Shown piece by piece: positions 10,195-28,826 of a DNA stretch of 64,000 bases. Position 1 is the first letter of the stretch, and every line of letters begins with the position of its first letter. The notes under the pieces were generated by a model. It did no database searches. It had not been told where the DNA came from and saw only the letters and a list, made by a program, of their open reading frames with translations. The DNA comes from Acidimicrobiia bacterium (GTDB taxonomy: Bacteria; Acidobacteriota; Terriglobia; Bryobacterales; Bryobacteraceae). Where the stretch lies: NCBI GenBank assembly GCA_016871315.1, contig VFZE01000012.1, positions 1 to 64,000 on the forward strand. Reading direction: 5' to 3'. A program made the translations under genes and the position numbers.

Positions 10195-11459
10195 GGATGA
10201 AATCTGCTTCCCTTACCTGTGCGTTTCTTTTCTCGTCCGCTATTGCCATCCCTGCCGACTGGCCCCAATGGCGTGGCCCCGGCCGCGATGCCATTTCCTC
10301 TGAGACCGGCCTGCTGAAGCAGTGGCCCAAGGACGGCCCAAAGCTCCTCTGGCGCATCGAGGGCATTGGAGACGGCTACGCTACTCCCGCGGTCGCCGGC
10401 TCTCGCCTGTTGCTCCTCTCCAGCCGCGGTGTAGAAGACGAATCCGTGCAAGCCTTCTCCGTCAACGATGGGAAGCTGCTGTGGTCCACCCGGCTCGGCA
10501 AGGTCGGCGCGCCCGATCAGCAGCCATCCTATCCGATGGCGCGCTCGACTCCCACCATCGATGGTGACCGCCTCTATGCCCTCAGCTCCGGCGGCGATCT
10601 CGCCGTCCTCGAAACTTCCACTGGCAAGATCATCTGGAAGAAAAACCTCCAAACCGACTTCCAGGGCAAGCAAGGCAAATGGGCCTACTCGGAATCGCCT
10701 CTCATCGATGGCGACCTCCTCATCGCAACCCCCGGTGGCGCCGAGGCCACCCTCGTCGCCCTCAAAAAATCCACCGGCGAACTCATCTGGAAATCAGCCG
10801 TGCCCGGCGCCGACCCGGCAGCCTACGCCTCCGCCATCGTCGCCCAAGCCGCCGGCCGCAAGCAGTACGTGCAGTTCCTCGACAAAGGCGTCGTTGGCGT
10901 CGACGCAAAAACCGGCCAGTTCCTCTGGCGCTATGAGAAAACCAGTACCGGCCCCGCCAACATCGCCACACCCATCGCTCACAATGGCTACGTCTACTCC
11001 ACCAACGCCCGGCGCTTCGGAGCAGGCCTTGTACAACTCCATGCCACCGCGCAGGGCCTCTCCGCCGAAGAGGTCTACTTTGAGCGCGACGCTCCCAACA
11101 CGCTCGGCGGCCAAGTGCTGGTCAACGGCGTTCTCTACGGCACCAACCAGAAAGGTCTCGCCGCCGCCGGCTTCGCCACCGGCAAGCTGAAATGGCAGTC
11201 GGAAACCGACGGCCCCGGCTCCGTGCTCTACGCTGAAGGCCGCATCTATCTCCACACCGAGGCCGGCGACATGATCCTCGCCGAAGCCACACCGGAGGCA
11301 TACCGGGAACTCGGCCGCTTCACGCCGCCGGGCCAGCCCAAGCACCTGCGCAATCGCGAAATGGCCTGGTCCTATCCGGTGGTCGCCAACGGCCGCCTCT
11401 ACATTCGCGACCAGGGCGTCCTTTGGTGCTACGACGTCAAGGATTCAAATCCCCGTTAG
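10188..11459 (+). CDS. Secreted PQQ-repeat beta-propeller protein
   Basis: The product (423 residues, or 420 if the in-frame ATG at 10197 is used) starts with a signal peptide and then DWPQWRGPGRDAISSETGLL, the usual opening of BamB-like/PQQ-repeat propellers of Acidobacteria and Planctomycetes. Repeated blades follow: SVNDGKLLWSTRLG, ETSTGKIIWKKNL, KKSTGELIWKSAV, DAKTGQFLWRYEK. It lacks the lipobox of true BamB and the catalytic residues of quinoprotein dehydrogenases, so it is more likely a scaffold or binding propeller. It overlaps the end of the TonB receptor gene by seven bases, suggesting cotranscription and an envelope role. Confidence 0.88.
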   Translation: MVGMKSASLTCAFLFSSAIAIPADWPQWRGPGRDAISSETGLLKQWPKDGPKLLWRIEGIGDGYATPAVAGSRLLLLSSRGVEDESVQAFSVNDGKLLWSTRLGKVGAPDQQPSYPMARSTPTIDGDRLYALSSGGDLAVLETSTGKIIWKKNLQTDFQGKQGKWAYSESPLIDGDLLIATPGGAEATLVALKKSTGELIWKSAVPGADPAAYASAIVAQAAGRKQYVQFLDKGVVGVDAKTGQFLWRYEKTSTGPANIATPIAHNGYVYSTNARRFGAGLVQLHATAQGLSAEEVYFERDAPNTLGGQVLVNGVLYGTNQKGLAAAGFATGKLKWQSETDGPGSVLYAEGRIYLHTEAGDMILAEATPEAYRELGRFTPPGQPKHLRNREMAWSYPVVANGRLYIRDQGVLWCYDVKDSNPR

Positions 11460-11474
11460 CAAGGAGTCACCTCC

Positions 11475-12020
11475 ATGAACCGCGCTTTGATCCTGCTGAT
11501 GCTGGCCGCGCTTACCATGCCCGCTCAGGAAAACCCGCTTAGCTCCGAAGCCCAGCAGTCTTGGGCTCGAACCAAGAACAACATTCTCGGCGCCGCAAAC
11601 AAAATGCCCGAGGATAAATACGACTACAAGCCAGCGCCGGAAAGCCAAAGCTTCCGCGATCTGGTGGCGCACACCGCCGATTCCGCCATGGGCGCCTGCT
11701 CCGGCTTCTCCGGCGAACGCAAATCAGCCGGCGCCGCACAGATGACCGCCAAGGCCGACCTCATCACCGCGCTCACCGCCGCCATGACCGAGTGCGACAA
11801 CGCCTACGCCTCCCTGACAGACGCCAAAGCCACGGAGATGATCGCCGGCCGCGGCGGCCAGCGCTCGCGTCTCGGCACGCTCTACGGCAACACCATCCAC
11901 ATCGAGCATGAGTACGCCCAGATGGCCGTGCACCTGCGCGCCAATGGCGTCGTTCCTCCGTCGAGCGAAGGCCGCATGGGCGGTGGTGGCGGCAAAAAAG
12001 GCGGCAAGAAGCAGCAGTAG
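11475..12020 (+). CDS. Secreted DinB-family protein
   Basis: The 181-residue product has a signal peptide (ALILLMLAALTMPAQ) and a four-helix DinB-like domain. Matches include SWARTKNNILGAANKMPEDKY, with the usual helix 1 and P-x-x-x-Y turn, FRDLVAHTADS with the first metal-ligand histidine, and HIEHEYAQMAVHLRANG with further histidines. DinB/YfiT proteins bind divalent metals through three histidines and include thiol-dependent transferases, but secreted ones have no assigned function. The C terminus is Gly/Lys-rich (GGGGGKKGGKKQQ). A strong ribosome site (AAGGAG) lies just upstream. It follows the PQQ-repeat gene by 15 bases and probably shares its transcript. Confidence 0.85.
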   Translation: MNRALILLMLAALTMPAQENPLSSEAQQSWARTKNNILGAANKMPEDKYDYKPAPESQSFRDLVAHTADSAMGACSGFSGERKSAGAAQMTAKADLITALTAAMTECDNAYASLTDAKATEMIAGRGGQRSRLGTLYGNTIHIEHEYAQMAVHLRANGVVPPSSEGRMGGGGGKKGGKKQQ

Positions 12021-12026
12021 CGCCCG

Positions 12027-13232
12027 TCAGCCGGCGCGGATCTTCTCTCCATCTGCGAGCGGTGGCTCGGCAGGCAGCGCCACCGCTTCACCCTCTTGAA
12101 GCCCGTTTTTCACTTCCACGTGCGTCAGGCTCGACGTGCCCAGCTCCACCTCGCGCCATCTCACTTGATCCCCACTGCGCACGAACACCCCCGTCTTGCC
12201 TCCCTCCCTCCGCAGCGCCTCTTTCGGAATGCTCAGCGCATTCTCCACCACCTCCGCCACGATCTCCACATTCACGTTCGCCCCGGCCGGCAAGCGCCCG
12301 TCCCTGTTTTCGATCCCGCAGCGCACCTCCCCCACTTGCCGCGTTCCTATCGCTACGATCTGCGCCGGCATCATTTCTACTTCCCCCTTCCAGCTTTCCC
12401 CCGGCGCCGCATCCCAGCTGATCGCGACCGCCATGCCCACCGATACGCGGCCCAGCTCCGGCTCGTCCACATAGACTGTCACCTTCAATCGATTCAGCTG
12501 TCCCACTTCCCCCACCAGGTCTCCTGGCCGCAGGAATGCGCCGTTTCGGATCGCCAGATTGTAGATGACGCCGTCCTGCGGCGAGCGGATCACCGCCTTC
12601 TCCAGCCGCAGCTCCGCCAGCGTGATGCCCGCTTCAGCCTCCTTCAGCCGCGCCTCGGCAGCTTCGCGCCCGCCGGTTGGCAGCAGGGAACCACGCTTCT
12701 TCTCCAGCCCCGCGATCTGCGCCTCCAGCTGCTTCACACGGTCTTGCTGCGCCGTCAGTTCCTGCTTTGTCGCCGCGTTCTTTTCCACCAGCCGCGCCGT
12801 CACTCCGGCCTCGCGCCGCGCGATTTCCAGATCCAGCCGCGCCTGCCACAGTCCGTTGTCGATCTCCGCCAGCGCCTCTGCCGCTCCGCCTCGCTCATAC
12901 ACTTCCAAATCGGCCCGCGCCTGCGCTTTGCGTGCCTCCGCGGAAGCCAACTCCCCGCGCACCGCGGAAACATCCACCTCCGCAACCACCTCACCCCGCC
13001 TCACTCGGCTGCCCTCCTTCACCCGCAATCTCACCACGCGCCCCTCCGCCTCGCTCCGCACGGCGGTGAACTCGGCCGGCAACACCTTGCCGTTCGTCGT
13101 CAGCCGGCTCACCAGCCGTTGCCGCTCCACGCGCATGAACCGGACCTCGCGCCCCACATCCCTGCGACCGTACATAAACATCGCGGCTGCAACAACCACC
13201 ACAACCAGCAGAAACGTGGCCAGCTTCCTCAC
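12027..13232 (-). CDS. HlyD/RND-type periplasmic adaptor subunit
   Basis: The start chosen is GTG at 13232, whose GTGA overlaps the stop of the dehydrogenase gene and opens directly into a membrane anchor (LATFLLVVVVVAAAMFMYG). The 401-residue protein then shows the membrane-fusion-protein pattern: first half of the lipoyl domain (VRSEAEGRVVRLRVKEGSRV), a long coiled-coil hairpin (about residues 85-190), the lipoyl return (VIRSPQDGVIYNLAIRNG), and beta-barrel and membrane-proximal domains. Such adaptors bridge an inner-membrane ABC or RND pump to an outer-membrane channel, but no pump or TolC gene lies nearby, so its partner must be elsewhere. It converges with the DinB gene, with six bases between stops. 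Confidence 0.88.
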   Translation of the reverse strand: MRKLATFLLVVVVVAAAMFMYGRRDVGREVRFMRVERQRLVSRLTTNGKVLPAEFTAVRSEAEGRVVRLRVKEGSRVRRGEVVAEVDVSAVRGELASAEARKAQARADLEVYERGGAAEALAEIDNGLWQARLDLEIARREAGVTARLVEKNAATKQELTAQQDRVKQLEAQIAGLEKKRGSLLPTGGREAAEARLKEAEAGITLAELRLEKAVIRSPQDGVIYNLAIRNGAFLRPGDLVGEVGQLNRLKVTVYVDEPELGRVSVGMAVAISWDAAPGESWKGEVEMMPAQIVAIGTRQVGEVRCGIENRDGRLPAGANVNVEIVAEVVENALSIPKEALRREGGKTGVFVRSGDQVRWREVELGTSSLTHVEVKNGLQEGEAVALPAEPPLADGEKIRAG

Positions 13233-14329
13233 GGCACCAGCACCGCCTTCCCGCTCTGCCACCGCTTCACCGTCTCCAGCGCCTCGGTCGCTTGCTCCAG
13301 CGGAAACCGGTGCGTCACCTGGCTCGCAAACAGCCGCGCCCACTCGCCCAACTCCAGCATCCGCAACGCCGCATCCACGTGCCGCGGCTCGAAACCCCAG
13401 CTTCCATGCACGGCCAGTTGCTTGCGCGTGATCGTGTGCGGGTTGAACTCGATATTGCCCGCATTGGCGTACTGGCCCAAAACCAGGAACTTCCCGCCGT
13501 CCCGGCACATCTCGATCCCTTCATTTACGGCTTCCGGATGGCCGACACACTCCACCACCACATCGGCTCCGTAGCCGCCGCATAACTCCAGCGTCAGTTT
13601 CTGCCGCTCCGCGCGATCCTTCACCTCGGCGATATCCACCGTCACATCTGCCCCAAACGCGCGCGCCATCTCCAACCGATGCGCCGGCCCGCCGATCGCC
13701 ACAATCTTGCCCGCGCCCGACTGCCGCGCCACCGCCAGCGCCGCCAGCCCCACCGGCCCCGTCCCCTGAATCACTACCACATCCCCCCACCCAACCGGAC
13801 ACCTTTCCAGCCCGTGGATCGCTGTCGTCAGCGCGCATCCGGCGCCCACCACCGACACCGTCTCCAGACTGTCCGGCAGCCGGAAAATCGACGACCCGGC
13901 CCGAAGCATGATCTTCTCCGCATACCCCCCGCGCAGATGCGGCGCATCCTCGCAACAATAGGAGATCCCGTACGCCTTCCTCTGCAAACACCTGGTCGGT
14001 TGTCTCTTCTGCCGGCAGTAGTAGCACTCCCCGCACACCACCGAACTCGCCCACGTCACGCGATCCCCGGCCTGAATCGGCACTCCACGCCAGTCACGGC
14101 TCAGCCCCTCACCCACCTCCTCCAGCCGCCCCACCGACTCATGGCCCAGGATCACCGGCAGCGGAATCGGCAGTTCGCCCTTCCACAAATGGACATCGGT
14201 GCCGCAGATGCCCGCCATCTCCACACGCGCCACCGCTTCGCCCGGCCCGGGCCGCGGCGGGGCAGGGAAGTCGCGCATCTCCAGCGGCTGGTTGTAGCCG
14301 GCCAGCACCGCCGCCCTCACCGCGCTCAT
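13229..14329 (-). CDS. Zinc-dependent alcohol dehydrogenase (MDR family)
   Basis: The start is ATG at 14329 with AGGAG seven bases upstream, giving 366 residues. The catalytic zinc site is GICGTDVH with GHESVG, and the structural zinc loop is CGECYYCRQKRQPTRC. The Rossmann fold shows VIQGTGPVGLAALAVARQSG. It should oxidise a secondary alcohol or polyol with NAD(P)+; the substrate cannot be told. It overlaps the upstream gene by four bases (ATGA) and the adaptor gene downstream by four bases (GTGA), so all three are translated from one message even though their functions look unrelated. Confidence 0.9.
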   Translation of the reverse strand: MSAVRAAVLAGYNQPLEMRDFPAPPRPGPGEAVARVEMAGICGTDVHLWKGELPIPLPVILGHESVGRLEEVGEGLSRDWRGVPIQAGDRVTWASSVVCGECYYCRQKRQPTRCLQRKAYGISYCCEDAPHLRGGYAEKIMLRAGSSIFRLPDSLETVSVVGAGCALTTAIHGLERCPVGWGDVVVIQGTGPVGLAALAVARQSGAGKIVAIGGPAHRLEMARAFGADVTVDIAEVKDRAERQKLTLELCGGYGADVVVECVGHPEAVNEGIEMCRDGGKFLVLGQYANAGNIEFNPHTITRKQLAVHGSWGFEPRHVDAALRMLELGEWARLFASQVTHRFPLEQATEALETVKRWQSGKAVLVP

Positions 14330-14895
14330 GCGCCGCTCCTCGCGCACCAGGCAAACAGCAACCGCCACTCCTTCAACTGCAGCTCCATCGCATCCTTTTC
14401 CATCGCCGAACCCGGCTTGCGCCACGCCTCCTCGCATTGATCGATAAACGCGAACGGATCCCACCGCGCCACGCCCGCCGCCTCCGCCAGTTCCTCAAAC
14501 ACCGGGTGCCGCCCCACTCTCCGGAACCAATAGGCCGCGTTTCCCGCATCCGGCTCCCTCCGGTGCATGATCCCGTGCCAGAAGCGCCCCTCCACGCTGT
14601 GGATGTTCTGCGAAATCTCGTGCGATTCATCCAGACGTGAAAAATACAGCCACAGCCCGCTCAGCGCTGCTTCCGGATGCCGCGCTCCGGGAAACAGCTC
14701 CGGCGCCTGGGCCTTCTTCAACAGGCGGCCCACCGCATCATCCAGCGCCAGCGAACCGGCCAACGGCATGACGCGCTTGCCGTCTCCTGCCAGCCTCAGA
14801 ATCTCCTGAACCGCATCCGAATAGATCATCGCCGAAAGAACCTCATTCTCCCATACCCGCCCCGGCAACTGAGCGGATTCCCTTGCACTAAACAT
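14326..14895 (-). CDS. Hypothetical protein translated with the dehydrogenase
   Basis: No family is recognised. The start is taken at ATG 14895 (MFSARESAQLPG, 189 residues); an upstream in-frame ATG at 14958 would overlap the divergent gene and is less likely. The protein is soluble, helical and rich in Trp/His/aromatics, with segments GLWLYFSRLDESHEIS, FWHGIMHRREPDAGNAAYWF and a C-terminal WRLLFAWC. It overlaps the dehydrogenase start by four bases, so the two are likely made together and may act on the same substrate. The His/Glu-rich middle (HEIS, HGIMHRREPD) could bind metal, but that is speculation. Confidence 0.7.
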   Translation of the reverse strand: MFSARESAQLPGRVWENEVLSAMIYSDAVQEILRLAGDGKRVMPLAGSLALDDAVGRLLKKAQAPELFPGARHPEAALSGLWLYFSRLDESHEISQNIHSVEGRFWHGIMHRREPDAGNAAYWFRRVGRHPVFEELAEAAGVARWDPFAFIDQCEEAWRKPGSAMEKDAMELQLKEWRLLFAWCARSGA

Positions 14896-14924
14896 TTTTA
14901 TTATGTTATGTTTGATCCTTCTCC

Positions 14925-15263
14925 ATGCCTTTGTACCGTATTCACCGCCTGAAGCCAAACCCCAGGCAATCTTTCCGCTGGGCTCCCCACACTGCCGGCG
15001 CCGCCTCGGTCAAGCCCAGGGACTACGAACCGGCCGGCGAGGTTGACGCTTCCTCGCCCTACGCCGCCTGGGCCGCCCTCAGCCAGTCCGAGCAGCCCCT
15101 CGAGGTCGGTGACCTGTTGGAGCAACCCGGCGGCGTTCTTTGCATCTATAAATATGTAGGCTTTGAAAAAGCCAACTGGGTGATCCCGGAAATCAAATCC
15201 GGAATGGAGAACGATCCCGCCGCCGCGGGCCCGCCGGTGCCGGACGCCTGCGCCGAAGCCTGA
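14925..15263 (+). CDS. Hypothetical 112-residue protein
   Basis: This soluble product has a basic N terminus (MPLYRIHRLKPNPRQSFRW) and a middle part, LEVGDLLEQPGGVLCIYKYVGFEKANWVIPE, that looks like a small beta-rich domain. No family is recognised and no catalytic motif is visible. It is divergent from the hypothetical protein at 14895 with only 29 bases between starts, an A+T-rich stretch that probably holds promoters for both. The 2H-phosphoesterase gene follows after 23 bases, so the two may be cotranscribed. Confidence 0.65.
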   Translation: MPLYRIHRLKPNPRQSFRWAPHTAGAASVKPRDYEPAGEVDASSPYAAWAALSQSEQPLEVGDLLEQPGGVLCIYKYVGFEKANWVIPEIKSGMENDPAAAGPPVPDACAEA

Positions 15264-15286
15264 CAATGTGTATTATGAGGTAAGAA

Positions 15287-15862
15287 ATGGAACCCCATCA
15301 GAATGGGGCCGCCAGGGTCAACAGTTTTGCGTTGGTAGCGTATATACCGGATCCCCTCGGCTCCTTCCTGGACCGGCTTCGTCAGAAGCTGGAACCCAAC
15401 TCACTCAGCCCCAAGGCTCACGTCACCATCCTCCCACCCCGCCAGCTCCCTGACCCCGGCATGAAGCAGCAAGCCTGGAATTGGCTGTGCGGCTCACTGA
15501 ACGGCGAGCCGGCCTTTAACATTTCCGCCGGCGGCATCGAAATCTTCCCCGGAACCCACGTCATCTACCTCTCCGTCGCCGACGGCTTCCATCGGCTTCG
15601 CGAGCTGCACCACCAGCTCAACGCCGATTCCCTTCAATTTGAAGAGCGCTTCCCCTACCACCCCCACATCACCCTCGCACAGAACCTCACCCAACAACAG
15701 GCTCGTGAACTCGCCGAGGAAGCCTCGCGCCTCTGGGCCGGCTTTCATGGCCCCCGCTCGTTTTCCGCCGAACGGCTCACCTTCGTCCAGGAGACATCGG
15801 ATAAGCGCTGGATCGACTTGCACCAGCTCCCCCTGGCTCACGCCGGCGTCCTGCGCTCCTGA
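15287..15862 (+). CDS. 2H phosphoesterase, 2'-5' RNA ligase-like
   Basis: The 191-residue protein carries both H-x-T motifs of the 2H superfamily, HVT at 45-47 and HIT at 127-129, spaced as in bacterial LigT/ThpR proteins. These enzymes act on 2'-5' or cyclic phosphodiester bonds; the physiological substrate is generally unknown. The fold pattern is typical: an N-terminal strand FALVAYIPDPLG, AHVTIL, and PHITLAQNL near the second motif. Its 3' end overlaps the convergent beta-helix gene by 86 bases, an unusually long tail-to-tail overlap; the beta-helix protein's last residues may therefore be a non-conserved extension. Confidence 0.88.
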   Translation: MEPHQNGAARVNSFALVAYIPDPLGSFLDRLRQKLEPNSLSPKAHVTILPPRQLPDPGMKQQAWNWLCGSLNGEPAFNISAGGIEIFPGTHVIYLSVADGFHRLRELHHQLNADSLQFEERFPYHPHITLAQNLTQQQARELAEEASRLWAGFHGPRSFSAERLTFVQETSDKRWIDLHQLPLAHAGVLRS

Positions 15863-17519
15863 CCTCCACCTCCTCGTCCACTCCCTCCGGTCTTGGCCCG
15901 TATAGCGGTAACGTCTGCCCCGCCTCATAGGCGCCGATATCCGGCCCTTCACCTGAGTATCCATCGTTGATATTCGGCAACCTCAAACCCGCATCCACCA
16001 CTTTCGATCCGGCCCGCGGCCGCAAATCGGGCGGCTCACGTTCCGGTATGGCCGGCAGCGGAAACGCTACGCCTTCGAACACGTCCATCTCCACGCGAAC
16101 CCCGTGCGGCTCCGCCTGAAAGAAATCCAGCCGCCCGATCCGCCCGCGGAACGGCGTCTCATACGTCCCCACCGCATCGTAATCGAAGCTGCAATGTGGC
16201 CCTGGATTCGCCATGTTCGCCGCCATGCCCGCCCCCGGACTGTAATTGCCGTACCGCGCCTCACCCGGCGGCCCGCCGATGGATAGATTGTTCCGGAAGT
16301 AGGCATGGTCGAACGGCTGGCTTGAAAAACACGCCATCCCGTCGCCCACCTTCACCGTCGTGTTGTGCAGCACCACGTCTCCCTGACTGTAGCGGTGCAG
16401 CTTGAACGGAACATGCGTCAGGTTGTACATCACGTTCCTGATGAAGTACGTTGGCCCTCCCAGCCCAGGTTGCGAACTGAGGCCCACAAAACAATTCGTC
16501 AGCCGGTTCCCCACGATCCGGCAGTTGTTAAAACAAAAATCCGCCTCGATTCCGTCATCCACTCCCTTATCAATATCGTTGCCGTACACATCGATCCCAA
16601 TCTGCTCATGCGCGCCCCGATCCTCCATGAACGAGATGCAGTCGCGGAAACCGCTCACACGGTTATGCGCTATCACATTCCCCGGCCCGGTCAGCTGAAT
16701 CCCTTCCCCCAGGTTCTCCCCATCGGCCCCCATCGCCTGGCTGATCCACGCATTTCGCCCCTCGATCACGTTATCGGCGATGTAGGCGTTCTTCGCCCCC
16801 GGCGGATTCGAGGCTCTCACCCCGTAGGTCGCGGTGATACGGCACCGCCGCACCACGATATCTTCGGTATCGTTCAGGCTGATCCCGGTTCCATCCGTGC
16901 GCACCGTCACGCCTTCGACATAAACATGCTTCCTCCCATTCAACGAAATCGACTCGAACACCGCCCCCCCATCCTCGGACCGGTAAACGATCGGCCGCCC
17001 CGGCTCCCCATCCTCCAACGCCACGAACCGCCCATACTCGCCCGCCTCCAGCAGCACGATCTCTCCCGGCGCCGCTCTGCCCAATTCTCCCGGACGCGCC
17101 CGCCTCAGAACGCTGTCCGGCGCCGCCCTCGGCACCGGTCTCGTTCGCGCCCGCACCGTCCGCTCCTCTGCTCCCCCATCCGGATCCTCAAGCTGCAGGT
17201 GAATCTCATATTCAGTCCCAGGCCGCAAGTCGAAAATCGACCCGCTATGCTTGTTCTCCCACGAAAAAGGAACCGTCGTTGTCCGCCCTTCTCCCGCCGG
17301 CACCCTGCGCAGCGGCATCGCCTCCCGCCACTCCTCTTCTCCCACCGCGCGGTACCGCACCCGAACCACTCCGTTCAGATTCTCGTCCCCGGCGATTTTC
17401 CACTCCACCGCCAGGTTCACCAGAGTCGGATACGGTGCGCTAACTTCCCCCGCTATCGTCGCATTCTGTGCCGCAACAGACCCTGCTGTCAGCGCCAACG
17501 CCGCCACCCATCGCATCAT
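15777..17519 (-). CDS. Secreted right-handed beta-helix protein
   Basis: The start is ATG at 17519, whose ATGA overlaps the stop of the preceding VOC fragment, giving 580 residues with a signal peptide (MMRWVAALALTAGSVAAQ). An N-terminal fibronectin-like part (about residues 25-125, including DLRPGTEYEIHLQL) is followed by many PbH1-type coils: GRKHVYVEGVTVRTDGTG, NDTEDIVVRRCRITATYG, GNVIAHNRVSGFRDCIS. This suits pectate-lyase-like polysaccharide lyases or hydrolases. The fold usually ends near DIGAYEAG; about 35 further residues run antisense to the 2H gene and are probably unstructured. No catalytic residues can be assigned, so the substrate is open. Confidence 0.85.
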   Translation of the reverse strand: MMRWVAALALTAGSVAAQNATIAGEVSAPYPTLVNLAVEWKIAGDENLNGVVRVRYRAVGEEEWREAMPLRRVPAGEGRTTTVPFSWENKHSGSIFDLRPGTEYEIHLQLEDPDGGAEERTVRARTRPVPRAAPDSVLRRARPGELGRAAPGEIVLLEAGEYGRFVALEDGEPGRPIVYRSEDGGAVFESISLNGRKHVYVEGVTVRTDGTGISLNDTEDIVVRRCRITATYGVRASNPPGAKNAYIADNVIEGRNAWISQAMGADGENLGEGIQLTGPGNVIAHNRVSGFRDCISFMEDRGAHEQIGIDVYGNDIDKGVDDGIEADFCFNNCRIVGNRLTNCFVGLSSQPGLGGPTYFIRNVMYNLTHVPFKLHRYSQGDVVLHNTTVKVGDGMACFSSQPFDHAYFRNNLSIGGPPGEARYGNYSPGAGMAANMANPGPHCSFDYDAVGTYETPFRGRIGRLDFFQAEPHGVRVEMDVFEGVAFPLPAIPEREPPDLRPRAGSKVVDAGLRLPNINDGYSGEGPDIGAYEAGQTLPLYGPRPEGVDEEVEVRSAGRRREPGGAGASRSSAYPMSPGRR

Positions 17520-20216: not shown

Positions 20217-21545
20217 ATGCCGCCAGCGCCGCTGCGCGACCGCCTGGTCCTGTTTGAGAAGATCTGCGGTGCGGTCGAGTACGCGCACCGCAACCTTGTG
20301 CTTCATCGCGACATCAAGTCCGCGAACATTCTGGTGAATCCCGAGGGCGAACCCAAACTGCTCGACTTCGGCATCGCGCGCGGCCACTCGAGCAAATCGA
20401 AGGAAACGCGACACAAACCGGACTGCGCGCGTTCACACCGGACTATGCCAGCCCGGAGCAGATCGAGGGTAAGCCAACGGGCACCGCCACCGATGTTTAC
20501 TCCCTTGGCGTCGTGCTGCACGAGTGGACGACCGGACGCAAAGCATTCTCGCTCTCCGGAAAGTCGCTGAGCGGGGTGGTGGACGCAGTGTGCCGGCATG
20601 GCATGCCGGCGGCGGGCACGGCTTCCATCGAACTCGACGCGATCATCGCCAAAGCCGTACGGATCGATCCGGTCGAACGCTAACCGTTCGGTGGCGGATC
20701 TGGCCGCCGACATCCGCCGGTGTCTGGAAGGCAGGCCGGTCGGTGCGCGGCCGGCGACGCGCCGGTATCGCTTCCGGAGACTGGTGTCGCGCAACCGGCT
20801 CGCTTCGGCGATGGCGGCGGCCCTCTTTGTGGCGATCGCCATCGGGGCGGCCAGCTATGTCCGTCAGTCGCGGGCGCAAGCGCGGAGGTTCGAGGACGCC
20901 CGGAAGCTGATCCGGACGGTAATTTTCGACGTTCAGCCGAAAATGGAAGCGATCCCGGCGACACTGCCGCTTCGCAAGACGTTGATCGAGGAGACGATGA
21001 CGTATCTCCAGAGCGTTTCCCGCGACACCGGCGGCGATGTGACGCTGATCCGGGAACTGGCCGGAGCATACCGTCAGTTGTCGCGGATCCTGAGTGACGC
21101 CAACTACGCCAACCTCGGAGATCGCAAGGGACGGGACGCCGCGATGCGCCGGGCCGAAGCGCTTCTTGCCGAAGCCCTCGCACAGAGTCCGTCCGATGCC
21201 GGTCTGCTCCGGGAGGCCGCCGAATTTCACGGAGAGATCGTCGGATTGCACGTCCAGGATAACTTCGGGGCCGAGGCGCGCCGCCATGCTGCTGTGTCCC
21301 TTGACTGCGGCAGGCGTGCCGCGGCGTTGGCGCCGGCCGATTTGCAGATCCGCGAGGCGTTGGCAAGATCCTACTTCTGGAACGGTGTGGCGAATCGCCG
21401 GTCGGATTGGAAGCTGGCGATTGATCAGTTGCAAAAGGCCTACACGATCAGCGCCGAACTTGGGTCCGGCGGCGATGCGAAGTTCACTCGCTACCCTCAG
21501 ACCCAGCCGGGAGAGCAAATTCCCTTCCGGCAGCAACCCGCCTAG
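20217..21545 (+). pseudogene. Ser/Thr protein kinase with TPR region, truncated and frameshifted
   Basis: The reading begins in the kinase C-lobe: [20 protein letters not shown], the catalytic loop [12 protein letters not shown] and the Mg loop LLDFGIA. It then leaves frame near 20400. The next part ([36 protein letters not shown]) is in another frame and ends at TAA 20681-20683. The first frame then resumes with SVADLAADIRRCLEGRP, a transmembrane helix (LASAMAAALFVAIAIGAASY) and helical TPR-like repeats. The Gly-rich loop and N-lobe lysine are missing. This is the acidobacterial membrane kinase-TPR family (PknB-like), here dead. Its 3' end runs antisense into a sulfotransferase gene. Confidence 0.85.
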
Positions 21546-21833
21546 AAAGCGCGCCAAATGCGTGTACGCCGGATAGCCACCCATGGGGTTATCCGGCACC
21601 TCCCCCTCGACGTGCTGCGTCATCGCCGTGCCGTCGGTCAGCAGACTCCGGCGCGTCTCGGCGAAAAACCGGTTCACTCCATCGCATACAGCCTCGTGGT
21701 CCGTCAGGTCAGGGTAATCCGTCCACACCAGAGGCTCATGCAGAGCCACCGTGTTGGCCACCTTGTTCAGCAGATGGCACGTGAGTGTGGTACCGGATCG
21801 GGGAATCCCCGTCGGAATGATGTCCGCGCTCAT
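20643..21833 (-). pseudogene. Sulfotransferase, 3' half replaced by kinase remnant
   Basis: ATG at 21833 has a strong ribosome site (GGAGGAG, five bases upstream) and overlaps the stop of the glycosyltransferase by four bases. The first 115 or so residues are a sulfotransferase N terminus with the PAPS 5'-phosphosulfate loop TGIPRSGTTLTCHLLNK. Beyond about 21480 the frame stays open to 20643 but is only the antisense of the kinase TPR region, so the 3'-phosphate-binding and C-terminal parts are lost. The predicted 396-residue product is a chimera and almost surely inactive as a sulfotransferase. It is the last member of the glycan operon, which suggests the final product was once sulfated. 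Confidence 0.75.
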
Positions 21834-22585
21834 AATGCTCCTCCCTCGGGCAGCTTCCGCCACGCCAGCGCATCCGCATGGTCTACCCGGACTCGCGGGT
21901 GGAACCTCGGCTGCACGTACCGCAGGATTGCCTGATCCGATCCCACGCCCGCCGGAAAATCCGGTAGACGGCTCCGCAGCGATCCATCGCGGATGTAGCG
22001 CACCCTCTCCCCCTGGGTCATCTCCGTCTCCCGGATATACCGCATCGCCTCGCCAAACACCTCGGGCAGAATCCCGGGCTGGCAAACGAACACTCCGGTA
22101 TTCAGAAACCGCGGTGCCAGACCCTCCCGCAGAGTCAACTCCTCCAGCCAACTCCGTACCTCCGGCATGCAGTCATACATGAACGACTCGCGCTCGGAGG
22201 AAAACAGCAGATCGCAGCCATGATCCTCCATCAGCCTGATCGCTTTTCCCGGATCATCCCGCACGAACACATCGTTGGCGTCCAGGTACAGCAGACTTTG
22301 ACTTGCACTGCCCGCTGCGCACGTAATCCACCAGGCTCCGCTCCGTAAGCGTCTCGCGCCGGTAGTTGTGTACCAGAACAATCGTCAGATCCTCCGGGCA
22401 TCGCAGCCTGCCGCGGACGTCCCGCAGATCCCCGCAATCATCATGGCGGCCGGCAGCGCCAGAAACTGCGGACTGTGGACGAACAACTGCGAGCCCCGCC
22501 GCACATCGTTCAACGCCGCCGGAATACCCAGAAAATGGCGGATGCGCGGCCGTAGCCTGCTGAACATGGAGACCTGAGACATCAC
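21830..22585 (-). pseudogene. Glycosyltransferase (PLOD/procollagen type), two compensating frameshifts
   Basis: ATG at 22585 overlaps the stop of the ligase gene by four bases. The N terminus (RPRIRHFLGIPAALNDVRRG) is in the first frame; the next part (EDLTIVLVHNYRRETLTER, SLVDYVRSG) is one frame off between about 22440 and 22300. The first frame then returns with LLYLDANDVFVRDDPGKAI, which carries a DxxD metal/sugar-nucleotide motif like that of LH3/procollagen glycosyltransferases, and FLNTGVFVCQPG. The total of 756 bases is divisible by three, so two opposite indels restore the end. If the indels are real the enzyme is dead; if they are errors it is a normal 251-residue transferase. Fourth gene of a fully overlapping operon. 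Confidence 0.7.
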
Positions 22586-24297
22586 TGCCGCCTGAGACTG
22601 CCGTCCACCCGGCCCGCCATCGCCCGCACCGTCGGAACTTCCAGCAGATCCAGCTCCGATGCGTCAATCTCGAACGTCTCGCTGATCCGCATCACCAACT
22701 GCGCCGCCAGCAGCGAATCGCCGCCCAGTTGCGAGTAGTCGTCATCCAGCCCCACATCACCCCCCTGCAAAAGTTCACTCCAGATGGCTGCTATCTGCTT
22801 CTCCGTTTCGCTCTCGGGAGCCACCCACGCCGCCGTCGCTAGACCCAGCCGCTCCGCCATCCCGATCCGCTGAATCTTGCCCGTCGAGCCCTTCGGCAAC
22901 TCCTCGCGAAATACGATCCGCCGCGGAATCTTGAACTCCGCCAGCCGCGCCGCCAGGAACTCCCTGATTTCCTCGGCGCTCACGCCGCACGCCGGACGCA
23001 GCACCACTTCAGCCGCAACCTCCTGGCCCAGCGTCGGATGCGCCACCGCGAACGTCACCGCCTGCGCCACCGCCGGATGCTCAAGAATCGCTTCATCAAT
23101 CTCCCTCGGCGACAGCTTCTCACCCCCCCGATTGATCATCTCCTTGGACCGCCCGGTCAGAAACAGGTAGCCGTCCTCGTCCATCCGCCCAAGGTCGCCC
23201 GTGCGAAACCAGCCGTCATCGAACGCCTCCGCGTTGGCTGCCGGATTCGCCACATACCCCGGCGTCACGTTCGCGCCCCGGATCGCCACCTCGCCACCTT
23301 CCAGAATCCGGATCTCCGGCCCGGCGGGCAGCCCCACCGAACCCGGCTTCCGTACACCCGGGGGAAGCGGATTGCACGCCATCTGGTGCGCCGCCTCCGT
23401 CATCCCGTAGGCCTCCACCACCGGCGTCGAAAACGTCTCTTCCAGCTGAGCCATCACCACCGGAGGCAGCGCCGAGGACGACGACCGCACGAACCGCAGC
23501 GGCCTGCGCCGAATCACCTCGCGGTACGCCGGAGCCTGCGTCAGCACCGCCTGGTGAATCGTCGGAACCGCCGTGTACCAGTTCGGCTCCAACTCGTCAA
23601 TCCACCCGAAGAACTTCCCGGCGTCGAATCCCGGCGTGCAGATCACGCTCCCTCCGGCGGACACGGAGCTCAGCATCGCCGCCACCAGCCCATGGATATG
23701 GAACAGCGGCATGACGTTGAGACACCGGTCTTCAGGCGTCAGCCGCAGTGTCGCCCGGATGTTGGCCGCCGAAGCCGCCAGATTCGCGCCCGTCAGGGCC
23801 ACCAGCTTTGGTCGCGAAGTCGTGCCTGAGGTGTGCAGCAGCAGCGCATCTTCCTCCGGTCCGGAAAATCCGCCCCCAGCCACCGGATCGCCCGCTGACC
23901 CGCTCAGCCGAAACCGTCCCGCTTCCGCTTCCGGCCGCAGTTGAACCACCGGGATTCCGCGTGCCCGTGCCACCTCACGCGCCGGAGTCGCCATCCCCTC
24001 GCCAACCAGCAGCGCTTTCGCTTGCAGATCGTCGAGGAAGAACTCAAACTCCTGCTGCCGGTAGGCCGGATTCAGCGGAGCCGCCACCGCGCCCGCCGCC
24101 ACCGCCAGAAACGCCGTCGCGGCATCCGGTCCATTCGGCAGCACAATCGCTACCCGGTCCCCCCGTCCGATCCCGGCTGCGTTCAGCGCCTCTACCGTCC
24201 CTTCCACGTGAGCCGCCAGTCCCGCGTGACTCAGCGCCTGCCGTCCCGGGGCCAGAAGTGCGGGCGTGTCTTCACGCCCCAATAACGAATGCATCAT
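22582..24297 (-). CDS. AMP-dependent acyl/aryl ligase fused to a carrier-protein domain
   Basis: This 571-residue protein is an ANL-superfamily adenylation enzyme with its own carrier domain. The ATP loop is LLHTSGTTSRPK, the A5 motif is AYGMTEAAHQM, the A7/A8 region is DGWFRTGDLGRMDEDGY with SKEMINRGGEKLSP, and the catalytic A10 lysine is in PKGSTGKIQR. The last 55 residues are a phosphopantetheine carrier domain with LGGDSLLA (Ser528). It would activate an organic acid and load it on its own arm, from which a transferase could pass it to an amino sugar. The overall sequence is closest to oxalate/fatty acyl-CoA-ligase-like members, so the acid may be a small carboxylate. It overlaps both neighbours by four bases. 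Confidence 0.9.
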   Translation of the reverse strand: MMHSLLGREDTPALLAPGRQALSHAGLAAHVEGTVEALNAAGIGRGDRVAIVLPNGPDAATAFLAVAAGAVAAPLNPAYRQQEFEFFLDDLQAKALLVGEGMATPAREVARARGIPVVQLRPEAEAGRFRLSGSAGDPVAGGGFSGPEEDALLLHTSGTTSRPKLVALTGANLAASAANIRATLRLTPEDRCLNVMPLFHIHGLVAAMLSSVSAGGSVICTPGFDAGKFFGWIDELEPNWYTAVPTIHQAVLTQAPAYREVIRRRPLRFVRSSSSALPPVVMAQLEETFSTPVVEAYGMTEAAHQMACNPLPPGVRKPGSVGLPAGPEIRILEGGEVAIRGANVTPGYVANPAANAEAFDDGWFRTGDLGRMDEDGYLFLTGRSKEMINRGGEKLSPREIDEAILEHPAVAQAVTFAVAHPTLGQEVAAEVVLRPACGVSAEEIREFLAARLAEFKIPRRIVFREELPKGSTGKIQRIGMAERLGLATAAWVAPESETEKQIAAIWSELLQGGDVGLDDDYSQLGGDSLLAAQLVMRISETFEIDASELDLLEVPTVRAMAGRVDGSLRRQ

Positions 24298-25421
24298 GCG
24301 TTGAAACTCCGTACACCATCAAGAATCTGGTCCAGATCGGAATCCGACAGCGCTTGGTGCAGCGGTAGCAGCAGCGTCTCATCCGCCACCCGCTCCGTGT
24401 CGGAAAGCGCTTGGCCGGAATGGCCGTAGTACACCACCCGGTGCAGCGGATGATAGCGGAACGTGGTGTAGATGCCCCGCTCCTTCAGGTGCGCCGCCAG
24501 CCGGTCGCGTCGCCCCTCGCCCGCTACCTGAATCCAGTAGAAGTAGTAGCTGGAACGGCAGTCCGCCGGGACCTCCGGACGCGGCACCAGCCAGTCGATC
24601 GCCGCCAACTCCCGCCGGTAGAACTCGTCCACCTGCCGCCGGCGTTCCAGAAATCCGGGCAGCTTCGCAAGCTGCTCTAGCCCGATCGCGGAACTAATGT
24701 CATTGGTAATCCCCCGCCTCCCGTCGCACGCCACTTCGAACTCCCACCACCGCGTCGCCGACGTATTTGAAAACCCGCTTTGGCTGCCGAGGCCCAGGTA
24801 CAGCTCCCGCTCTGCCCGGGAGGCCAGTTCTTCATCCCGTGCGTAGACCATGCCGCCGTCGCCCGTCACCAGAATCTTCGCCGGGTCGAAGGACCACACG
24901 CCGATGTCTCCCATCGTGCCGCACGCCCTTCCCCGGTATACCGACGCCACACTGCACGCGCTGTCTTCGATCAGGGCGATTCCGCGCGGCCGCAGCAGTT
25001 CAAGAATCGGGTCCATGTCCGCGGGCAGGCCGCCGTAGTGAAGCAGCAGCACCGCCTTCGTCTTTGGGGTCAGACACGCCGCAATCGTCTCCGCCGTCGC
25101 ATTCAGCGTGCGCGGATCCACGTCGCAGAACACCGGACGCGCACCCCGCGAGACCGCTGCGTTGGCTGACGCCACAAAGCTGATCGATGGCATCACCACC
25201 TCGTCGCCCAGCCCGGCGCCCACCAGCTTCACCGACAGAAACAGCCCTTCGCTGCAGGAATTCGCACTCCGCAACTGCTCCCGCCGTACGCCAAGATGCC
25301 CGGCGAAGGCGGCTTCAAACCTGCCGGTCAGCTTACCTTTTCCCAGCCAGTTCGACGCGAAAACACGTCCCACCGCCGCCAGTTCTTCCGCCCCCAGAGA
25401 GGGCTGAAACACATTGATCAC
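24294..25421 (-). CDS. DegT/DnrJ/EryC1-family sugar aminotransferase
   Basis: The start is GTG at 25421, whose GTGA overlaps the acyltransferase stop; this gives 375 residues beginning INVFQPSLGAEELAAVGRVF, a typical DegT N terminus. The PLP region shows ALIEDSACSVASVYRGR (Asp) and GVWSFDPAKILVTGDGGMVY, where the lysine forms the Schiff base. The family transfers an amino group from glutamate to a keto-sugar nucleotide. Followed by the ligase and preceded by a NeuD-like acyltransferase, it most likely builds an acylated amino sugar for a surface glycan. It overlaps both neighbours by four bases. Confidence 0.92.
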   Translation of the reverse strand: MINVFQPSLGAEELAAVGRVFASNWLGKGKLTGRFEAAFAGHLGVRREQLRSANSCSEGLFLSVKLVGAGLGDEVVMPSISFVASANAAVSRGARPVFCDVDPRTLNATAETIAACLTPKTKAVLLLHYGGLPADMDPILELLRPRGIALIEDSACSVASVYRGRACGTMGDIGVWSFDPAKILVTGDGGMVYARDEELASRAERELYLGLGSQSGFSNTSATRWWEFEVACDGRRGITNDISSAIGLEQLAKLPGFLERRRQVDEFYRRELAAIDWLVPRPEVPADCRSSYYFYWIQVAGEGRRDRLAAHLKERGIYTTFRYHPLHRVVYYGHSGQALSDTERVADETLLLPLHQALSDSDLDQILDGVRSFNA

Positions 25422-26086
25422 AGTCCGTCCACTCCATGCTTTACCGCCACGGCCGGCGTCCCCGCTACCATCACGTGCGCCGGAACGTCCCGATGCACCA
25501 CCGCGCCCGCCGCCACTACCGCGCCCTCGCCCACGCTCAGACTCCCCATCACAATTGCGCCCATGCCGAGGTGGCTGCCCGCTCCTATCCGGCTCATTCC
25601 ACTCATGCAGACGCCAGGCCCAACCGTCACACACTCCTCCATCACGATGTCATGCCCGATCAGCGCTCCCCGGTTGATCAGCGTGTGCCTGCCGATCCGC
25701 GTGTTCGTCGCAATCTGCACTCCGGACGAGATGATGCTGCCGTCGCCCACGACACTGCGCCGCGAAACCCTTGCCGTCGGATGAATCACGGAAGTGAACC
25801 GGAATCCCATCGCCTCCGCCTGCCGGATGAACGCGATCCGGCGGGTGCTGCCGAAGGCGCACACGCACCAGTGCGTCGCCGCCATCTCAGCGATGTCGTC
25901 CACCCAGTAGACCGGTAACCCGTCGATCATCGCCTCGCCGCACAGCGCGCGGTCGGTGTTCTCCACAAAGCCGGTCAGTTCAAGGCCGGCAATATCGCTC
26001 ACCAGGTCCGCCACTTCCCGGGCGAAGCTCCGCGCGCCTAAAATCAGTAGCGGTCTGCGCTCATCGGAGTCCGTGGCGTTGTTCAT
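25418..26086 (-). CDS. NeuD/PglD-like hexapeptide acyltransferase
   Basis: The 222-residue protein has an N-terminal Rossmann-like sugar-binding part (LLILGARSFAREVADLV, residues 13-29) and a C-terminal left-handed beta-helix of hexapeptide repeats (IHPTARVSRRSVVGDGSIIS onward). The catalytic histidine is probably in ALIGHDIVMEE. This matches acetyltransferases such as PglD, PerB and NeuD, which acetylate UDP-4-amino sugars made by DegT aminotransferases, and the DegT gene is the next gene. Its start overlaps the end of the upstream glycosyltransferase gene by 26 bases. Confidence 0.9.
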   Translation of the reverse strand: MNNATDSDERRPLLILGARSFAREVADLVSDIAGLELTGFVENTDRALCGEAMIDGLPVYWVDDIAEMAATHWCVCAFGSTRRIAFIRQAEAMGFRFTSVIHPTARVSRRSVVGDGSIISSGVQIATNTRIGRHTLINRGALIGHDIVMEECVTVGPGVCMSGMSRIGAGSHLGMGAIVMGSLSVGEGAVVAAGAVVHRDVPAHVMVAGTPAVAVKHGVDGL

Positions 26087-27059
26087 GTTCCTCCATCAGT
26101 CCAACCATCCGTTCGGTGGAGCGCATCAGCGTCGCTTCCTCCCTCACGAAACCATATGCCTTTTCCGTAATGGCATGCCGCTCGGTGTCGTGGTCCAGAA
26201 AGTGGCGGATGCACCCCGCCATTTCGCCGGTGGGCGCCATCAGAAAATGCTCTCCGGGAACAAAGGGTTCCGGCCGGTAAATCGGTTCGGAAACCACTAG
26301 CGCCTTGTTCGCCATCCCCAGACTCAGCCGGTATCCCGAGAACTCCGCCGGTGTCCTGGCCAGATTCACCAGAATCTTCGCCCGATTCAGCAGCCGCGTG
26401 CGGTTCTCGCCCCAGTACGCCGGGTCGGTCCAGCTTCCCGCCTCGGTGACTTTGATATTCTGCTGCCGCAACGACCGCAACAGACGATTCCGCCGGGGTA
26501 CGTTCAAAATTCCCAGAAACAGCACTTCCATATCGCGTGCAAGGCCGAGATCCCGCCCCATTGACGGATCGCACCCAAGTGGCGCAAAATGCCCGGGGAT
26601 GCCGCGTTCTGCCAGAAACTCCTGCCGGCCGCGCGAAGAAAGCACCAACACATCCGGAATCCCGGCTCGATGCAGCTTTCGAATCGTCAGGTAGTTGGTG
26701 TAAACGTCGGTGGCCCGCGCATCCCGGAGAACGATCTTGGCGATCTCCCGCAGGTTCAGCCACGGCATCGGGACACCGGTGGCTCGCGCCGGCGGAAGCG
26801 GTTCCGAGTGCCACAGAAGGATGTACGGACGCCGTTCAGGAGCCAGGCGCAGCAACCGTCCGCAAATCTGCGGATACCAGGCGGCATTGCCGAAAATCAC
26901 CAGCCATTCGCCTGCCGGAGGAATCCGGTCCCCGTCGTCGCCGGTCAGGGTCACCCGGCATCCATGGTGCCTCAGTGCTTCGATGAACGGCGACTCTGCG
27001 CCAACCAGGGCCTTGAGCACGCGGTAGCAAAGCGTGACTCGCCGAATCCCATTCCTCAT
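26061..27059 (-). CDS. CgeB-like glycosyltransferase family protein
   Basis: ATG at 27059 with AGAGG about eight bases upstream gives 332 residues. The protein has two Rossmann-like halves; the C-terminal half carries HFAPLGCDPS, DMEVLFLGILNVPRRNRLL and a late segment with FVPGEHFLMAP, which match the GT4-like CgeB/spore-maturation glycosyltransferases (a 'P.g.d' anchor and a 'PG.h.l.' donor-site loop). There is no membrane segment. It is the first gene of the minus-strand glycan operon that continues to about 21480. A possible -10 (TATACT at 27128-27123) lies 64 bases upstream but without a good -35. Confidence 0.75.
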   Translation of the reverse strand: MRNGIRRVTLCYRVLKALVGAESPFIEALRHHGCRVTLTGDDGDRIPPAGEWLVIFGNAAWYPQICGRLLRLAPERRPYILLWHSEPLPPARATGVPMPWLNLREIAKIVLRDARATDVYTNYLTIRKLHRAGIPDVLVLSSRGRQEFLAERGIPGHFAPLGCDPSMGRDLGLARDMEVLFLGILNVPRRNRLLRSLRQQNIKVTEAGSWTDPAYWGENRTRLLNRAKILVNLARTPAEFSGYRLSLGMANKALVVSEPIYRPEPFVPGEHFLMAPTGEMAGCIRHFLDHDTERHAITEKAYGFVREEATLMRSTERMVGLMEEHEQRHGLR

Positions 27060-27420: not shown

Positions 27421-27425
27421 GCGCT

Positions 27426-27452
27426 TGGTAGCGCTAACGGGATTCGAACCCG
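27426..27452 (-). repeat. 27-bp copy of the tRNA-Glu 3' end (att-like repeat)
   Basis: These 27 bases are identical to the 3' end of the intact tRNA-Glu gene at 28753-28779, including CCA, acceptor strand and most of the T arm; identity then stops. No 5' half of a tRNA follows, so it is a fragment. A direct repeat of a tRNA 3' end flanking about 1.3 kb is the usual mark left by a tyrosine-recombinase integrative element. Confidence 0.75.
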
Positions 27453-28675: not shown

Positions 28676-28752
28676 ACTTCATCCTAAGCAAAGCAGCATC
28701 GTCCTGACGGTGTTCGCGTCACAGCGCATAGCCCGTAAGTGTATGAAACATT

Positions 28753-28826
28753 GGTAGCGCTAACGGGATTCGAACCCGTATTTGAGCCTTGAGAGGGCTC
28801 CGTCCTAACCCTTAGACGATAGCGCC
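28753..28826 (-). tRNA. tRNA-Glu (anticodon CTC)
   Basis: On the minus strand the 74 bases fold into a full cloverleaf. The acceptor stem is 7 bp (with one G-T at the first pair) and there is a D arm. The anticodon stem GAGCC/GGCTC closes a 7-base loop CTCTCAA, giving anticodon CTC for GAG codons. The T arm is ACGGG/CCCGT with loop TTCGAAT, followed by an encoded CCA end. A copy of the last 27 bases lies at 27426-27452. Confidence 0.95.

Follow-up and report, generated by a model that had tools for sequence, protein, structure and literature searches.

The first stretch of contig VFZE01000012.1 (positions 1-64,000, the whole of which we call the window) carries a run of six genes on its minus strand. 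Four of them encode a glycosyltransferase (GT1), a sugar N-acyltransferase, a DegT-type aminotransferase and an adenylating ligase fused to its own carrier domain, and together they form a cassette that recurs in related genomes. Judging from the proteins and their relatives, the cassette would carry out sugar N-acylation, a reaction of a known kind, with a specific and unusual acid, most likely oxalate. We give even chances to the proposal that its enzymes assemble a 4-amino sugar with an N-linked acyl group, most likely oxalyl, and then transfer this sugar.

Coordinates confirmed that the six genes lie on one strand and overlap successively by 26, 4, 4, 4 and 4 bases, as the original prediction had stated. 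GT1 (26061..27059) is a Glyco_trans_1_2 glycosyltransferase (PF13524, 43.4 bits with a cut-off of 25) of a rare family that marks the cassette. The acyltransferase (25418..26086), a hexapeptide protein, falls in the NeuD/PglD/VioB family of sugar N-acyltransferases (TIGR03570, 162.4 bits with a cut-off of 160.8), and the aminotransferase (24294..25421) in the DegT/DnrJ/EryC1/StrS family (PF01041, 280.5 bits), where it is TlmJ-like. The ligase-carrier (22582..24297) consists of an oxalyl-CoA-synthetase-like adenylating enzyme (CoA, coenzyme A; AMP-binding, PF00501, and AMP-binding_C, PF13193) and a phosphopantetheine carrier (PP-binding, PF00550). The carrier domain corresponds to 22609..22797, with residues 501-563 matching the profile and the attachment serine in the motif LGGDSLL; its position at residue 528, predicted earlier, was confirmed. 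These four genes are intact, and the residues expected for catalysis are present, namely the pyridoxal phosphate (PLP) lysine Lys182 of DegT, His145 of the acyltransferase, Lys474 of the ligase and Ser528 of the carrier. None of the four core proteins matched a PADLOC model, and a known anti-phage defence system was rejected on this basis.

GT1 proved to be rare. At E 1e-30 it was present in 10 of the 257 genomes of the order, representing 8 of 84 genera and 11 places, and in a phylum sample of 396 genomes it was found in the window genome alone. A plasmid-borne GT1 family was rejected, as no match was obtained at E 1e-15 in 72,556 plasmid records. With the window counted, GT1, the acyltransferase and the ligase-carrier stand side by side at six of the 11 places. 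The other five are G008, G548, G549, G593 and G625; DegT precedes the row in four of these, and in G549 the contig ends at GT1, leaving DegT off the contig. In these five relatives the acyltransferase and ligase genes either overlap by 11 bases or stand 1 or 3 bases apart. The gene order in the window (GT1, acyltransferase, DegT, ligase) differs from that of the relatives, and the genes flanking the cassettes vary between places, as judged by eye and with a few family scans. At four places (G033, G053, G520 and G561) GT1, DegT and the acyltransferase occur with no ligase in the fetched 16-20 kb, the GT1 of G053 being broken, and one GT1 (G033:C28) is solitary.

Phylogenetic trees constructed with FastTree grouped the window proteins with those of the ligase-bearing cassettes, with supports of 0.98 for GT1, 0.88 for the acyltransferase and 0.91 for the ligase. 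The GT1 tree left out the broken GT1 of G053, and the DegT of G549 was unavailable for comparison. The ligase tree comprised 39 sequences, including 20 of 51 stand-alone ligases; it omitted L101, which trimming had left too short, as well as the duplicates L095 and L118. GT1, the acyltransferase and the ligase are thus co-inherited as one unit, and the core locus is a four-gene cassette. The original prediction would have regarded the operon as chance if homologues of the ligase-carrier never occurred with sugar genes or if the genes were scattered in relatives. For the core genes the outcome favoured the prediction, with ligase, acyltransferase and GT1 standing side by side at six places, and we rejected a chance operon because the core recurs in relatives and the three proteins co-group in trees.

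The primary structure of the ligase was then compared with proteins of known structure. Its best PDB matches were oxalate-CoA ligases (5ie0, 6qjz and 8aff, with 398, 382 and 349 bits), against 204.6 bits for a malonyl-CoA synthetase, 209.5 for a chimera and 176 for gramicidin synthetase. Compared with the oxalyl-CoA synthetases (plant AAE3, yeast Pcs60), the window ligase shares 46.6% identity with AAE3 across the adenylating domain as aligned, but differs in being fused to a carrier and in belonging to a sugar cassette and not to a route for breaking down oxalate. Seven pocket residues of AAE3 (Arg176, His214, His216, His264, Ser289, His319 and Lys500 in the chain numbering of 5ie0) correspond to Arg162, His200, His202, His248, Ser274, His304 and Lys474 of the window ligase. 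They are also kept in all five cassette ligases compared and in a paralogue from the same genome. We examined relatives at the best 80 loci of a longer list, and the same seven positions were kept in all 67 stand-alone and all 13 carrier-fused proteins, two of the latter (L095 and L118) being the same proteins as cassette entries. We take positions 214, 289 and 319 of AAE3 to contact oxalate. Ten control ligases of 31-35% identity, hand-picked among weaker matches from the genomes examined and related ones, had neither His264 (0 of 10) nor His319 (0 of 10). As the other pocket positions do occur in controls, only these two discriminate. Several controls look like malonyl-CoA synthetases at these positions, to judge from the motif there. 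A malonate-type ligase was rejected, taking into account the far lower score of malonyl-CoA synthetase and the absence of His264 and His319 from the controls.

The genomic surroundings of the ligase relatives point in the same direction. A PanE-type, oxalyl-CoA-reductase-like gene lies within 3 kb of 53 of the 67 stand-alone relatives, in 51 cases within 200 bases and in 52 on the same strand. Two papers report that PanE reduces oxalyl-CoA in Methylobacterium extorquens (PMC9485241) and that panE2 has been used for an oxalyl-CoA reduction step (PMC12686821). In the window genome, the gene of the paralogue (498 residues, 47.9% identity) shares 4 bases with a PanE-like gene, which in turn shares 4 bases with an antiporter-type gene. 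The antiporter-type gene passes the oxalate/formate antiporter cut-off (417 against 335), and the three genes (L153, G000:C20:2660-6371) are probably an oxalate-use operon. By sequence, pocket and context, the ligase branch appears to belong to oxalate metabolism, and we infer that the carrier-fused cassette ligase loads the same acid as the rest of its branch.

With a carrier behind its adenylating domain and the carrier serine in a GGDS motif, the protein has the arrangement of the adenylation-carrier didomain of nonribosomal peptide synthetases. Nevertheless, we rejected an amino-acid-type adenylation domain, as acyl-CoA ligases gave the highest PDB scores (398 bits, against 176 for gramicidin synthetase), and no condensation domain was found in the window genes that were scanned. 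The fused carrier argues for the carrier, and not free CoA, as the acyl acceptor. Two genes of the phosphopantetheinyl transferase family are present in the window genome and could arm it.

The carrier-fused relatives outside the cassette occur in a variety of settings. Fusions of ligase, carrier and thioesterase (874-890 residues) are found at L046, L048 and L109, on contigs of Solibacteraceae, Anaerolineales and Bryobacteraceae. A thiamine pyrophosphate (TPP) enzyme is encoded in the same cluster as the carrier-fused ligase at L049 and L053. We dropped these TPP enzymes as evidence for oxalate, since the acetolactate synthase model fits about as well as or better than that of oxalyl-CoA decarboxylase (341.8 and 342.9 bits, respectively, for L049 and 309.1 and 284.9 for L053, all below cut-off). 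A gene of the phosphoenolpyruvate (PEP) mutase/isocitrate lyase family lies beside L049, its best model being methylisocitrate lyase, below cut-off, and a shorter relative is next door to L071, L073 and L078. Those of L071 and L073 are near-identical, with 116 residues, and the L071 copy has no Pfam match. Oxalate-producing oxaloacetate hydrolases are members of this superfamily. At L049 itself (Gammaproteobacteria SZUA-140, 7851-16776), the ligase-carrier gene is followed by the PEP-mutase-family gene and by genes for the TPP enzyme and for a protein of 1407 residues that contains a ligase-like domain, possibly a small-molecule cluster. A separate locus, L136 (G020:C471, 6771-13709, minus strand), has a stand-alone oxalyl-CoA-synthetase-like ligase whose gene is coupled to that of a hexapeptide acyltransferase by 4 bases; DegT lies upstream. 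It is a sugar-type locus with an epimerase-like gene (upstream) and deacetylase-, flippase- and glycosyltransferase-like genes, all named by eye.

Concerning the acyltransferase, its PDB relatives are a pilin glycosylation protein (4m98) and VioB (7txp), and the histidine corresponding to His145 is kept in 10 of 10 cassette homologues. The protein resembles the NeuD/PglD/VioB sugar N-acetyltransferases in this histidine and in its TIGR03570 match, just over the cut-off; it differs in its coupling to a ligase-carrier and in a distinct C-terminal tail. This tail, VK.GVDG[LY], is present in all six ligase-associated acyltransferases and in none of the four ligase-less ones, a difference compatible with a change of partner, although common descent alone may account for it. 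In vio and pgl loci a DegT aminotransferase gene adjoins one of the NeuD/PglD/VioB type, and the same is seen in the window. The bacillosamine (Pgl) pathway has PglF and PglC beside the aminotransferase and acyltransferase; neither was found in the six-gene run of the window, in a scan that took in neither the remaining genome nor most genes beside the other cassettes.

The PLP lysine was conserved in 9 of 9 cassette DegTs. The window DegT is closest to TlmJ (5uid), with 468 bits over nearly the whole protein and 197 bits for the next PDB relative. We assume that TlmJ is tied to tallysomycin; the comparison was confined to DegT, and a literature search for TlmJ papers found none. The DegT of the G008 cassette, the sole other one compared with PDB proteins, is closest to ArnB. 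With identities of 29-32% to the ligase-bearing group and 32-38% to the ligase-less group, the window DegT falls outside the former, and it has probably been exchanged. Since many named DegT relatives presumably act at carbon 4 of the sugar, we take the product to be a 4-amino sugar. As for GT1, a profile search against PDB sequences gave no match. An AlphaFold model built from three sequences was weak (mean predicted local distance difference test score, pLDDT, 62), and its best fold matches were GT-B glycosyltransferases with template modelling (TM) scores of about 0.5, which would assign GT1 to the GT-B class and no further.

A pathway can be proposed from these assignments. DegT would transaminate a nucleoside diphosphate 4-keto sugar made elsewhere in the cell, as its family suggests. 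Considering its pocket residues, relatives and context, the ligase domain would adenylate oxalate and load its own carrier at Ser528. The NeuD/PglD-family acyltransferase, going by its family and co-occurrence, may then take the oxalyl group over from the carrier (or from CoA) and attach it to the amine of the sugar, and GT1, to judge from family and fold, would pass the finished sugar to an acceptor. The original prediction already suggested that the ligase-carrier could feed an acid to an amino sugar; the co-inherited core makes this plausible, and we would now specify oxalate as the likeliest acid.

Several observations weigh against this proposal. The control ligases share His214 in 9 of 10 cases, Ser289 in 7, His216 in 6 and Arg176 in 2. 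Among NCBIfam models, the window ligase and its paralogue alike score highest with that of the FadD7 fatty acid-CoA ligase (403.5 and 474.7, both under the cut-off of 650), and an oxalyl-CoA-synthetase model was absent from the best 25 of 107 NCBIfam matches to the window ligase. Among the stand-alone loci, 14 of 67 have no PanE neighbour, some of them on short contigs, and an oxalate/formate-antiporter-like gene lies within about 200 bases in merely 4 of 67. Neither gene was found beside any of the 13 carrier-fused ligases, three of which are on contigs of 3.8-5.0 kb, and the PanE-like genes were assigned by type alone. The antiporter-type gene of the paralogue operon also passes the cut-off for an L-lactate transporter (349.5 against 320). 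At 11 of the 13 carrier-fused loci there is no homologue of GT1, DegT or the acyltransferase. As to the sugar, a family scan found no dehydratase in the cassette, the acyltransferase passed the NeuD model by a narrow margin, and the NeuD/PglD family is known for its use of acetyl-CoA. Acylation without a ligase is also possible, as ligase-less cassettes exist.

We considered whether the same cassette, with the same carrier-to-amino-sugar logic, might use another small acid such as glycolate, glyoxylate, malonate or a hydroxy or amino acid. The varied contexts of the carrier-fused relatives, with their thioesterase fusions, TPP enzyme, PEP-mutase-family gene and neighbours with further ligase-like domains, could mean varied acids, and the closest curated model bears a fatty-acid name, although below its cut-off. 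On the other hand, carrier-fused and stand-alone proteins agree at the pocket positions inspected, the score of malonyl-CoA synthetase is far lower, and the two discriminating histidines are missing from every control. We regard another acid as unlikely, while giving it serious weight. Slightly less probable in our view is that the acyltransferase merely N-acetylates the amino sugar from acetyl-CoA, the acid on the ligase-carrier going to another position or to the acceptor via an enzyme outside the cassette. This would agree with a family named for acetyl transfer and with the four places where GT1, DegT and the acyltransferase do without a ligase. It does not readily account for the separate group, with a common C-terminal tail, formed by the ligase-adjoining acyltransferases, and the contiguous genes in relatives leave no room for an extra acyltransferase inside the cassette (the flanks were partly scanned).

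The ligase-carrier could also be a chance neighbour, co-transcribed with the other genes but working in a different pathway, such as one that handles oxalate or makes a small molecule. We consider this very improbable, even though most carrier-fused loci are devoid of other cassette homologues. Ligase, acyltransferase and GT1 are kept together at six places, the acyltransferase-ligase joints are tight in five relatives, the three proteins track one another in trees, and the separate G020 locus couples a stand-alone ligase to a hexapeptide acyltransferase with DegT upstream. We retain an N-acylated, most likely N-oxalylated, 4-amino sugar as the preferred product. Extending this reading, the existence of bacterial N-oxalyl (oxamoyl) amino sugars can be put forward tentatively, with somewhat less than even confidence. 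Here a PglD-like transferase would receive oxalate from a ligase derived from oxalate metabolism and fused to a carrier. The sugar decoration formed would be charged and metal-binding, the transferase would be a bacterial N-oxalyltransferase, and an oxalyl-carrier would also be a donor in other clusters with the same ligase-carrier.

Individual steps of such a pathway have counterparts in known systems. In butirosin biosynthesis a side-chain ligase, a carrier and an acyltransferase move a carrier-bound acyl group to an aminoglycoside, in likeness to the cassette. Compared with the cassette, both butirosin and the flagellin viosamine island of Pseudomonas syringae involve other ligase families, separate carriers and other acids. 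The island, according to its description (PMC3927599), resembles the cassette in having glycosyltransferase as well as amino-sugar genes, which serve to make a modified amino sugar. The synthesis of β-N-oxalyl-L-α,β-diaminopropionic acid (β-ODAP) in Lathyrus, as described in PMC9485241, uses AAE3 and a BAHD oxalyltransferase; as proposed for the cassette, a thioester of oxalate is formed and its oxalyl group passed on to an amine, but with a plant BAHD enzyme, free CoA and an amino-acid acceptor. A plant wall oxalyltransferase activity O-oxalylated glucosamine but did not N-oxalylate it, as stated in the available text of PMC6099474, and the available text of a 2022 paper counts one known oxalyl-CoA transferase in all. 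Among the best-ranked papers of our search, which left most subscription journals outside, we found neither an oxalyl-carrier protein nor a bacterial oxalylated glycan, nor any description of the proposed decoration.

The last two genes of the run had been counted as part of a six-gene operon and described as damaged. The damage was confirmed; the unit was not, as the conserved part is the four-gene core. GT2, a second glycosyltransferase-like gene (21830..22585, named by eye and in the original prediction, read in three frames), starts with GTG, its overlap with the ligase-carrier falling to 1 base if the next ATG is used. The same frame is read at both ends, with a stop in between, and by eye some 28 residues of a different frame look as if they were coding. 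No Pfam family matched, and no homologue was available to check the broken frame against. The sulfotransferase-like 5' fragment (21546..21833) has a PRSGTT motif and a weak PF13469 match (16.3 bits, E 0.012, under the cut-off of 27), and its reading stops at about 96 residues. Each of the two genes was found in 1 of the 257 genomes of the order, that of the window, and the 92 neighbourhood loci compared contained neither, the in-frame searches for GT2 leaving out its N-terminal piece. On these grounds a six-gene unit was rejected, and since the two genes were found in a single genome of the 257, their damage says little about the core. Past about 21545 the sulfotransferase frame runs antisense to a broken Ser/Thr-kinase-like remnant outside the cassette (20217..21545, plus strand), which abuts the fragment; the exact junction, and with it the fragment end, was placed by inference. 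The first frame of the remnant covers positions 103-153 of the 263 in the Pkinase profile and the second has no family; by eye, we read the two as one gene.

Elsewhere in the window, an exact 28-base direct repeat (27425-27452 and 28751-28778) duplicates the 3' end of a tRNA-Glu gene (28752-28826, minus strand) 1.3 kb away, and one copy is some 370 bases upstream of GT1. The arrangement resembles what an integrated element leaves behind. None of three open frames that lie between the repeats or run across them had a Pfam family match, and in a same-genus genome the contig starts at the tRNA, cutting the comparison there. A subtilase-family protease (PF00082; 18121-19827, plus strand) ends with many near-repeats of the type WGSSALWGSSA.

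The ligase-carrier fusion thus becomes a specific prediction, in which an oxalyl-carrier would be the acyl donor and an N-oxalyl sugar the product. If this is true, oxalate has a biosynthetic use in bacteria besides its breakdown.

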